A DNA stretch of 45,756 bases from contig JAUPVS010000007.1 of NCBI GenBank assembly GCA_030916945.1, positions 1-45,756 on the forward strand. The letters run 5' to 3'. Under the pieces are notes generated by a model. The model did not search any database, was not told where the DNA came from, and saw only the letters and a list, made by a program, of their open reading frames with translations. Position 1 is the stretch's first letter; each line of letters opens with the position of its first letter. Shown one piece after another: positions 10,688 through 16,364 of the stretch. This DNA is from Patescibacteria group bacterium. GTDB taxonomy: Bacteria; Patescibacteriota; Saccharimonadia; Saccharimonadales; JAUPVS01. The translations under genes were made by a program, and so were the position numbers.

Positions 10688-12724
10688 ATGCAACTCCACG
10701 ATAAGCTCGAGATTGTGTCGGGGGTTGGGCCGGCGCTGGCCGCCAAGTTCGCTCAACTTAACCTGTACACCATTCAGGATCTGCTGTTTTACTTTCCTCG
10801 GCGTTACGACGACTATTCAAATATCCAGCCAATCAAGGCCTTGCAGCCCGGTGTGGTGACAATTCGCGCCCAGATTAAAGATATTAAAGGGCGTTATGTC
10901 CGGCGTGGCATGCATATCACCGAAGCAGTCGCCAGCGACAGCAGTGGCAGTGTTAGGCTAACCTGGTTTAATCAACCCTATCGCGAAGATCAGACTAAAC
11001 GTGGCCAAGACTATTTTATAACCGGTACCTTTGCTATGAGCTACCAGCGGTTGGCAATCACCAACCCGTCGATTGAACTGGTCAGTGACTTTCCGGTTAG
11101 CACCGCCCGAATCGTGCCGGTCTACCGCGAAACTAAAGGACTCAAGTCCGCCCAGATTCGACGCGTTATCCGTAATGTCATACCAATGGTCGACAAACTC
11201 AACGAGAGTCTACCCGCCTGGGTGTTGAAAGAACAGGGCTTAATTGGCCGGGCTCAGGCTTTGCACCAAGTGCATTTTCCGGATGACATTAAAGATTTAG
11301 AAGAAGCCCGGGCCCGCTTAGGTTTTGAGGAGGTTTTTGAATTAACACTGGCGGCGTTGCTGAATAAATACGAAATTCTAAACACTAAAACTCTCAAGAT
11401 TCCATTTAAGGAAGCATTAGCCAAGGAGTTTGTGGGCCATTTGCCCTTTACTTTAACCGACGCCCAGCGTAAGGCTGTCTGGCAGATGTATTTAGACATG
11501 CAGAAAGCTCATCCGATGAATCGCTTGTTAGAGGGCGATGTTGGTTCTGGCAAAACTGTAGTGGCCACCATGGTAGCTCTGATGGCTATGGAGCAAGGCT
11601 TTCAGGTCGCCTTTATGGCGCCAACCGAACTATTGGCTCGCCAACACGCCGAAACCATCCACGCTCTACTTGAGCCATTAGGTTACGCTGATCAGGTTGG
11701 TTTACTGGTGGGCGGCCTAAAGCCCAATCAAAAAAAGCTGGCCCAGGAGCATATCGCCGATGGTTCGGTGCGGCTGATTGTTGGCACCCACGCCCTTATT
11801 CAAGAAAAAGTTGATATGCACAAACTTGGGTTAGTTGTTATCGACGAACAGCATCGCTTTGGTGTTGATCAGCGTAAGGCCCTCCAGAAAAAGGCTGGTC
11901 ACATGCCGCACGTTCTAAATATGACGGCTACGCCCATTCCGCGCAGCTTGGCTCTAACGCTGTACGGTGAAATGGATGTCACGGTACTAGACGCCAAGCC
12001 CAGTAACCGCCTGCCAATTAAAACTGAACTGTGTTCGCCCCACTCACGCAAGCAGCTTTACAGCAAACTAGAGGCTGAACTGAAGTCGGGCCGGCAAATG
12101 TTTGTGGTCTGTCCGCTAATCACCGACTCGGCCATGTTACAGGCTCGCTCGGCCGAGCAGGTCTATAAAGAATTTACCGAGCGTGATTTTAAACAGTTTA
12201 AGGTTGGACTACTGCACGGCAAGCAAAAAGCCGAAGACAAGAACCGGGTGATGGAACAGTTTGTGAAGCACGAGCTCGACATATTAGTGTCGACGACGGT
12301 GATTGAAGTAGGTGTTGACGTTCCCAACGCCACCGTCATGTTAATAGAAAACGCCGAACGCTTTGGTCTGGCTCAGATTCATCAGTTACGCGGTCGGGTA
12401 GGGCGCAGTCACCACCAGGGGTACTGTTACTTGATGTTAAGCGATGCCAAGGCGCCCAGCCAGCGTTTACGGGCCTTGGCTGGCAACCAAGATGGCTTCG
12501 CTTTGGCCGAACTCGACCTGGAGCTACGCGGTCCGGGCGCGATTTATGGCACCTTTCAGCACGGTCAACTAGACTTAAGAATCGCCACCCTAACAGATGT
12601 CAAGCTGATCACACGGGCGCGCCAGGCGGCCCAGGATGTTATTGATAAGGGTGAAAATTTGTTAGACTATAAGGAACTCTATGAACATGTTAATGCGCTT
12701 CGCGCCGTCACGAATTTAAACTAA
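10688..12724 (+). CDS. recG: ATP-dependent DNA helicase RecG
   Basis: This 678-residue superfamily 2 helicase regresses stalled forks and migrates Holliday junctions. It has an N-terminal helical part and OB-fold wedge (about 1-230, beginning with a helix-hairpin-helix-like GVGPALAAKF), Walker A GDVGSGKT at 283-290, the DEQH box at 386-389, motif III TATPIPR, and motif VI in the RecG-typical QIHQLRGRVGRS. The length is near the family norm. Its TAA shares one base with the ATG of the following gene, which suggests translational coupling. Confidence 0.97.
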   Translation: MQLHDKLEIVSGVGPALAAKFAQLNLYTIQDLLFYFPRRYDDYSNIQPIKALQPGVVTIRAQIKDIKGRYVRRGMHITEAVASDSSGSVRLTWFNQPYREDQTKRGQDYFITGTFAMSYQRLAITNPSIELVSDFPVSTARIVPVYRETKGLKSAQIRRVIRNVIPMVDKLNESLPAWVLKEQGLIGRAQALHQVHFPDDIKDLEEARARLGFEEVFELTLAALLNKYEILNTKTLKIPFKEALAKEFVGHLPFTLTDAQRKAVWQMYLDMQKAHPMNRLLEGDVGSGKTVVATMVALMAMEQGFQVAFMAPTELLARQHAETIHALLEPLGYADQVGLLVGGLKPNQKKLAQEHIADGSVRLIVGTHALIQEKVDMHKLGLVVIDEQHRFGVDQRKALQKKAGHMPHVLNMTATPIPRSLALTLYGEMDVTVLDAKPSNRLPIKTELCSPHSRKQLYSKLEAELKSGRQMFVVCPLITDSAMLQARSAEQVYKEFTERDFKQFKVGLLHGKQKAEDKNRVMEQFVKHELDILVSTTVIEVGVDVPNATVMLIENAERFGLAQIHQLRGRVGRSHHQGYCYLMLSDAKAPSQRLRALAGNQDGFALAELDLELRGPGAIYGTFQHGQLDLRIATLTDVKLITRARQAAQDVIDKGENLLDYKELYEHVNALRAVTNLN

Positions 12725-13545
12725 TGTATTCTGGAACAACTTTTACAAAGTATTCTGGTGCCGTGCTTGGTGCCCATCAAAAGTTTGATCGAGTGGCGCG
12801 CCGTCATCTCGAAAAAGTCGTGCCCGATAACAGTGTTTTCCCGCGTATTCGTACAATTCTGCAGTTTGAAGGGCGTAATGGTCCAGATGGCGTTAAGCTA
12901 AAAAGTCCGGCCAAGGACGAGCCCTGGCATTACTACAGCCCGTTTGATAACGACGATTCACAGTTGATTGAGCTGATTAACGACCACTACAAGAGCCTGG
13001 TAAAAGAGCTTAAGGCTGGCAACAAGGAACGCTCGGCCTTTGAGGCAGCCTGGCTAGCTCACGCCATTGTCGATGGCTTGACGCCAGCCCACCATTATCC
13101 ATACGAAGAAAAGCTGGTTGAGCTACGTGGTGGTGAGGGCATCGAAACCCGGACTACAACTAAGCAAAAGCTGGTTATGCCGGGCGACACCCGCCGCGAA
13201 AAGGTTAAGAATAACTGGAAGATGTGGGGTCCTAAAGGGCTTTTCACGGCTCATGGCATGTTCGAGATGGGCATTGCGGCAATTATCAAACCGCTCAGTT
13301 TTGGCGAAGCCGTTCCCAAGAAAGAAGATCTGGAGCGCGTTCAAGAACTGGGCGTGGCCGAGATCTTTAAACGCACCGCCCGCGAAATTGCCGTCCTGGA
13401 TATGTTCGAAAACTATCACAAGAAGGGCTGGACACCAAAGCTGGCCCGTCAGGTTCGTCAAAAGCTAGGACCACTTATTATCCAGACAATTACTTTGGCT
13501 TGGTATGCTGCTTTGGTAGATGCCAAATTGGTGAAGGTAGACTAG
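12724..13545 (+). CDS. putative zinc-dependent phospholipase C/P1 nuclease-fold protein
   Basis: I do not know a name for this 273-residue protein, but it carries a metal-ligand pattern like the trinuclear zinc site of Bacillus cereus phospholipase C (H14, D55, H69, H118, D122, H128, H142, E146). Here the matching residues are H18, D55, H69 (in PWHYY), H113-x3-D117-x5-H123 (in AHAIVDGLTPAHH) and H178-x3-E182 (in HGMFEMG). The spacing inside the two helical motifs is identical. Secreted members need a cleaved N-terminal Trp; this one has no signal peptide and no such Trp, so a cytoplasmic location or an altered third site is likely. It overlaps recG by one base (TAATG) and is followed by rsmD after 4 bases. 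Confidence 0.65.
   Translation: MYSGTTFTKYSGAVLGAHQKFDRVARRHLEKVVPDNSVFPRIRTILQFEGRNGPDGVKLKSPAKDEPWHYYSPFDNDDSQLIELINDHYKSLVKELKAGNKERSAFEAAWLAHAIVDGLTPAHHYPYEEKLVELRGGEGIETRTTTKQKLVMPGDTRREKVKNNWKMWGPKGLFTAHGMFEMGIAAIIKPLSFGEAVPKKEDLERVQELGVAEIFKRTAREIAVLDMFENYHKKGWTPKLARQVRQKLGPLIIQTITLAWYAALVDAKLVKVD
13538..13543 (+). promoter_or_regulatory. -10-like TAGACT upstream of rsmD
   Basis: TAGACT ends 6 nt before the rsmD ATG. The stretch TAGACTAG followed by a dinucleotide and ACATG is shared with the radA start, where TAGACT is also 6 nt from ATG. Confidence 0.4.
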
Positions 13546-13549
13546 ATAC

Positions 13550-14083
13550 ATGCGGGTTATTGCCGGCAGTTTAAAGGGGCGGCAGTTTAATTCTCCTGGT
13601 GGCCATCGCACCCACCCGATGAGCGAAAAAATGCGTGGCGCCATGTTTGGTGTTTTAGGTGACATTGTTGGCCTAACGGTACTTGATGCCTTTGCTGGCA
13701 GTGGTGCCCTTAGTTTTGAAGCCCTCAGTCGCGGCGCCAAAAAAGCTCTTTTACTTGATAACGACAAGACTGCCCAAGACACCATAGAAGAAAATATCAC
13801 TAAACTTGGGTTGACTGACCAATCTCGTTTTATCAAGGCCAATGCCCTCAGCTGGTCAGCTAAAAACAACGGCCAAACCTTTGATTTACTGCTTATCGAT
13901 CCACCCTACGACCGCCTGCCATTCCCTGTAATTGAACGCTTGGCACGCCATTTAGCACCGACCGGAGTGTACGTTTTATCGTGGCCGAGCCAGTATGAGC
14001 ACCCGCGCCTGCCTGGACTCGAAGTTGTCAGCAATAAACTGTATGGCGACGCCCAACTGGTTTTTTATCGGCATATCCAGTAA
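13550..14083 (+). CDS. rsmD: 16S rRNA (guanine966-N2)-methyltransferase RsmD
   Basis: This 177-residue SAM methyltransferase modifies G966 of 16S rRNA during 30S assembly. It shows the RsmD N-terminal signature MRVIAGSLKGR, the HPMSEKMRGAMFGVLG segment, the SAM loop LDAFAGSGALS (about 45-55) and the catalytic DPPY at 117-120. The length is typical. It has no clear Shine-Dalgarno and may be read from a leaderless message or by coupling to the gene 4 bases upstream. Confidence 0.95.
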   Translation: MRVIAGSLKGRQFNSPGGHRTHPMSEKMRGAMFGVLGDIVGLTVLDAFAGSGALSFEALSRGAKKALLLDNDKTAQDTIEENITKLGLTDQSRFIKANALSWSAKNNGQTFDLLLIDPPYDRLPFPVIERLARHLAPTGVYVLSWPSQYEHPRLPGLEVVSNKLYGDAQLVFYRHIQ

Positions 14084-15917: not shown

Positions 15918-16364
15918 ATGACAGCGACTAATCATGTTGTTTTTGGTGCCTTAGTGGCCACGGTTGTCCAAAATCCAGTAATTGCCATACCAGTGGCGCT
16001 GGCCTCACATTATGCACTCGATGCACTGCCACATTTTGACTACCCAGTAAAAGGTCATCATAGTTTGCGCTTTTTTATTTGGCTGGCGATTGACTGTGGT
16101 ATTGCCGCCAGTATTTTGGCCAGTATTTTGTTGTTGCAACCAGCCAATGCCGGCTTAATGATTGCTTGTGGTATAGCCGCCGCCAGCCCGGATTTAATGT
16201 GGTTGTATTACACGATTTACAAGCATGGGGAAGATAAGGACAACTGGCCTTTATTTGTAAAATGGCACGCCGCCGTGCAGCGCCATACCGGACCCAAGTT
16301 GTGGCCACTCGAATTAAGCTGGTTGGCTGCTATGGGTGGGCTGCTACTAGTGCGAGCCGCCTAG
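15918..16364 (+). CDS. small integral membrane protein, YdjM/DUF457-like
   Basis: This 148-residue protein is mostly hydrophobic with about four membrane segments. It begins with TNHVVFGALVA and has SHYALDALPHFDYP, so H6, H35, D39 and H44 could bind a metal. This arrangement resembles the YdjM/DUF457 family annotated as membrane-bound putative metal-dependent hydrolases; the match is by eye only. It directly follows the hisS stop, so it is probably co-transcribed, but a functional link with hisS is not implied. Confidence 0.6.
   Translation: MTATNHVVFGALVATVVQNPVIAIPVALASHYALDALPHFDYPVKGHHSLRFFIWLAIDCGIAASILASILLLQPANAGLMIACGIAAASPDLMWLYYTIYKHGEDKDNWPLFVKWHAAVQRHTGPKLWPLELSWLAAMGGLLLVRAA

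Follow-up and report, generated by a model that had tools for sequence, protein, structure and literature searches.

The open reading frame at positions 12724-13545 (forward strand) of the window, the 45,756-nucleotide stretch of contig JAUPVS010000007.1 analyzed here, very probably encodes an active zinc enzyme that forms an unsecreted Saccharibacteria branch of the known phospholipase C/P1 nuclease superfamily. Membership of this superfamily, with the zinc site, is in our view close to certain and catalytic activity highly likely, and on balance we read the protein, with somewhat better than even confidence in the reading as a whole, as a cytosolic zinc-dependent phosphodiesterase of the superfamily with phospholipid as its likeliest substrate. 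The gene and its immediate neighbors are arranged as follows.

10688-12724, forward strand: recG, the upstream neighbor, whose stop codon TAA (12722-12724) shares one base with the ATG of the next gene.
12724-13545, forward strand: gene for the putative zinc-dependent phospholipase C/P1-superfamily protein, 273 amino acids, unsecreted, recognized from its open reading frame, homologues, profile and fold model.
13550-14083, forward strand: rsmD-like 16S rRNA methyltransferase gene, the downstream neighbor, named by sequence recognition.

The reading frame is real and begins with ATG; a start further upstream is impossible because the ten open codons preceding this ATG contain no ATG, GTG or TTG. 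Homologues of the protein were present in 35 of the 41 genomes searched, its own genome counted. The residues on which the assignment turns are listed below.

12724-12735, forward strand: codons M1-Y2-S3-G4, the fixed N-terminus M-[YWNF]-[SA]-G, with the Met1 amine proposed in the place of Trp1.
12775-12777, forward strand: H18, predicted equivalent of the zinc-3 ligand His14 of PC-PLC, invariant.
12886-12888, forward strand: D55, predicted to bind zinc 1 and proposed to serve as general base (Asp55 of PC-PLC, Asp65 of S1 nuclease), invariant and matched from the literature.
12895-12903, forward strand: K58-x-K60, with K58 at the place of Lys68 of S1 nuclease relative to the catalytic Asp.
12928-12930, forward strand: H69, predicted zinc-1 ligand, invariant.
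13060-13092, forward strand: H113-x3-D117-x5-H123, predicted ligands of zinc 1 (H113), zincs 1 and 3 (D117) and zinc 2 (H123).
13252-13266, forward strand: H177-x3-E181, predicted zinc-2 ligands, invariant, with Glu as in PC-PLC and Asp in P1/S1 nucleases.

A preliminary description of this DNA had proposed the complete ligand pattern of the superfamily, and H18, D55, H69, H113, D117 and H123 all lie where it placed them; the last pair is present as well, but as H177 and E181 and not under the numbers H178 and E182 that had been assigned. The order and inner spacing of the ligands (D-x13-H, H-x3-D-x5-H, H-x3-E) are, as it had stated, those of B. cereus PC-PLC, the positions for comparison being literature values (D55/H69, H118/D122/H128 and H142/E146; PMC10420013). 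All eight ligands (H18, D55, H69, H113, D117, H123, H177 and E181) do not vary among 61 close relatives, nor among 30 more divergent ones, a set that includes divergent families of the class and one genome from outside it (L169). The residues M1, G4, K60 and P73 are likewise unchanged across the 30 divergent sequences; K60 is also invariant in the close set, and K58 is found in 61/61 sequences of that set (A2) and in 28/30 of the divergent one, being lost in L169 and L171. Furthermore, a F-E-G-x-x-G-P-D loop (residues 48-55) is conserved in the family, and an insertion of 30-40 residues separates H123 from H177 in the order. H18 is the putative counterpart of His14, a zinc ligand in PC-PLC, and the binding of metal by the protein is itself a prediction.

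That the pattern is a product of chance, or a relic that no longer binds metal, is very improbable. The weak scores to known families would fit such an origin, but the eight residues stay invariant in divergent relatives, the models of the fold described below both retrieve one superfamily, and the strict ligand pattern arises in 4 of 200,000 shuffled versions of the sequence, a figure that flatters the case because the pattern was drawn after the protein had been seen. Conservation is the stronger test of the pattern. Among 1,180 open reading frames of at least 150 amino acids from related loci, the strict pattern matches 108, and 106 of these carry a family-like PAH motif.

Structure prediction and comparison with PDB entries, which had been put forward as a check, agree with the superfamily fold. 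Two AlphaFold2 models were obtained (pLDDT 88.9 and 88.4), built from different lead sequences with largely shared alignments, and for both Foldseek ranked PC-PLC first, together with the alpha-toxins and Listeria PLC, and placed S1 nuclease after them; plant nucleases were among the matches of the first search only. Probabilities reached 1.00 and fell to 0.15 or less at talin, where unrelated proteins begin, with modest E-values (best 1.9e-3), TM-scores of 0.35-0.56 and, for some matches, a large rmsd. At the profile level, PF00882 (Zn_dep_PLPC) scored the window protein at 22.6 bits, under its cut-off of 26.8; two relatives passed this cut-off (30.8 bits, and 30.3 bits in G202), and the profile was detected in 10/13 and 58/69 family members. 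The nuclease profile PF02265 had no match to the window protein in the Pfam scan and appeared weakly in 4/69 relatives (best E 0.0056). PDB sequence searches with the protein or with the family profile returned chance matches alone, and NCBIfam, PADLOC and a viral fold library gave no match for the protein. By prediction, then, the fold class is that of the phospholipase C/P1 nuclease superfamily, and by profile and modeled fold the protein is closer to phospholipase C than to S1/P1 nuclease. Ligand set (minus Trp1), profile and predicted fold thus uphold the superfamily membership first proposed.

The same comparisons leave an appreciable minority share of probability with a cytosolic S1/P1-type nuclease or 3'-nucleotidase that would recycle RNA, taken-up DNA or small nucleotides. 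S1 structures occur in both Foldseek match lists, PF02265 touches some members, the D55-x2-K58 pair, invariant in the close set, has the spacing of D65/K68 in S1 nuclease, and H69 is followed by an aromatic residue (Y/F70) that may correspond in position to Phe81 of S1 nuclease, which stacks a base. The protein is also basic (pI 9.4; family median 9.2), and D55-x2-K58 and the pI fit a nuclease no less well than a phospholipase. However, phospholipases outrank nucleases in both fold and profile searches; the putative last ligand, E181, is Glu, the phospholipase form of this residue, and not Asp; and a non-specific cytosolic nuclease would be harmful unless restricted. The neighboring recG, which had been held to make a nuclease attractive, reflects gene order alone.

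The expected conservation next to recG was indeed found: of 80 loci, 79 have recG upstream and 75 have rsmD downstream; tyrS, a methyltransferase gene, hisS and the trigger factor gene are often nearby. The proposed translational coupling to recG was borne out in part: the one-base TAATG overlap is real, but it is not conserved, the gap ranging from -1 to 292 nt among 77 relatives. Moreover, among 24 genomes in which no copy was detected, 19 have recG within about 200 nt of rsmD, so that the gene can go while recG stays. The linkage therefore looks like an old inherited order of housekeeping genes with little bearing on function, and the argument from it to a recG-coupled repair nuclease was rejected on the shared gene order, the gene-less genomes and the variable gap. 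No lipid gene was recognized beside the gene.

Further downstream, after hisS, positions 15918-16364 (forward strand) encode a predicted membrane protein of 148 amino acids with an N-terminal His and a SHYALDALPHFDYP stretch, which recurs at about this place in roughly one third of related loci. It had no Pfam or NCBIfam match; these features are reminiscent of the YdjM/DUF457 group of putative membrane hydrolases.

In secreted members of the superfamily, the mature N-terminal Trp is a zinc ligand (PMC10420013). The window protein, as had been described, lacks such a Trp: residue 1 is Met, followed by Tyr (Trp in a few relatives). Inspection by eye showed neither a signal peptide nor a hydrophobic stretch at its N-terminus, and no signal peptide was seen by eye in any relative examined. 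Since Trp1 is defined on exported members, its absence limits the claim to classical membership and leaves superfamily kinship intact. Other PF00882 members elsewhere may also be unsecreted. In all 77 extracted loci residue 18 is His and the protein begins [MLV]-[YW]-[SA]-G, the extraction having demanded a start of this general shape, outside which three more loci fell; divergent families start with M-[NYF]-[SA]-G and vary in linker length, and one relative (L031) begins MYSR. An initiator Met is not normally removed when Tyr, Asn, Trp or Phe follows it, which makes the Met1 amine a natural candidate ligand, and we give it an even chance of replacing Trp1 at the zinc site. The models lend it no support because their N-terminal segment has pLDDT values below 50 (residues 1-14 in the first, 1-5 in the second). 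If the Met1 amine is the ligand, it would show how a superfamily known for its exported enzymes can mature with no export step.

In the parasitic Saccharibacteria the gene is a core one, and it is nearly absent from the rest of the phylum. With the family profile, 111 of the 147 genomes from this class gave a match, and a profile search of 287 genomes of the phylum gave two matches outside the class (1.3e-12 and 4.0e-4); many of the relatives carry the label Candidatus Saccharibacteria. Other Patescibacteria (L054, L057) encode large proteins, of about 700 amino acids or more, that combine a region resembling PF00882 with what looks like a signal sequence; the phylum thus seems to have exported members of the superfamily as well. 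Literature searches on Saccharibacteria with phospholipase C, and on Patescibacteria with zinc-dependent phospholipase, returned nothing relevant.

The genome of the window (G000, 94.6% complete) had no Pfam match to a PlsC-type acyltransferase, a CDP-alcohol phosphatidyltransferase or DgkA, and membrane-lipid synthesis has been described as lacking in Saccharibacteria (PMC10939385); together these make the handling of foreign phospholipid plausible. Presence of the gene showed no overall association with CDP-alcohol transferase matches. Strong matches (at least 90 bits) were commoner where the gene is absent (14/20 without the gene), a trend confounded by ancestry because 12 of these 14 belong to one genus, and given no weight here. 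Many genomes of genus g42 (e.g. L185-L197) lack the gene and have recG and rsmD adjacent; many of them also have a strong match to CDP-alcohol phosphatidyltransferase, which is likewise confounded by ancestry.

In the mechanism we propose, zinc 1 would be held by D55, H69, H113 and D117, and zinc 2 by H123, H177 and E181. The third zinc would have H18 and D117 as ligands and, probably, the Met1 amine freed by deformylation. With D55 as general base, a water bound to zinc would make the in-line attack on phosphorus, and K58 and K60 would help to hold the phosphate. Cutting of the head-group phosphodiester of membrane phospholipids would yield diacylglycerol and a phospho-head-group, and host-derived lipids could be remodeled by such cleavage. 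Both this activity and the substrate are matters we infer: phospholipid is slightly favored, at a little short of an even chance, because the nearest family is phospholipase C, the last ligand is Glu and the lifestyle depends on host lipids, while a nucleic acid or nucleotide is a tentative second candidate. Another phosphoester, such as a glycerophosphodiester, a cyclic dinucleotide or a phospho-sugar, is improbable as the substrate of the same zinc site; the family-specific F-E-G-x-x-G-P-D loop and the insertion may mean a substrate of the family's own, but the profile and fold matches name phospholipases and nucleases alone. The most far-reaching form of the phospholipid reading, a group-wide unsecreted branch in which the initiator Met amine replaces Trp1, maturation needs no export and phospholipids from the host are degraded or remodeled within the cell, is as a whole rather unlikely. 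For the study of host-lipid handling in Saccharibacteria, a core unsecreted phospholipase-like enzyme in about three quarters of the class would provide a concrete gene to test; a nuclease would instead be of interest as a possible agent of nucleotide salvage in bacteria that depend on a host.

Among known systems, the Het-C domain is related to the superfamily and has been described as a helical hydrolase with comparable His and acidic residues (PMC3482391); it had no match in our Pfam scans. The S1/P1 nucleases (PF02265), which share one superfamily with phospholipase C (Pfam clan CL0368; PMC4144908) and include S1, P1, TBN1 and AtBFN2, resemble the Saccharibacteria protein in superfamily and predicted zinc site. 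D55-x2-K58 is like D65/K68 of S1 nuclease, in which K68 binds phosphate and sugar (PMC5201275), and phospholipases may share such a Lys. In contrast to these nucleases, the Saccharibacteria protein is unsecreted, lacks the N-terminal Trp and has Glu instead of Asp as the last ligand, and its fold and profile match to them is weaker. The closest likeness is to PF00882, the family of B. cereus PC-PLC, the clostridial alpha-toxins and the Listeria broad-range PLC, with which the protein shares the order and inner spacings of the ligands, Glu as the last zinc-2 ligand (invariant E181), an all-helical fold (here predicted) and its best profile and fold match. It differs from members of this family in lacking a signal peptide and a mature Trp1, in its M-[YWNF]-[SA]-G start and invariant K60, and in about 40 additional residues between H123 and H177.
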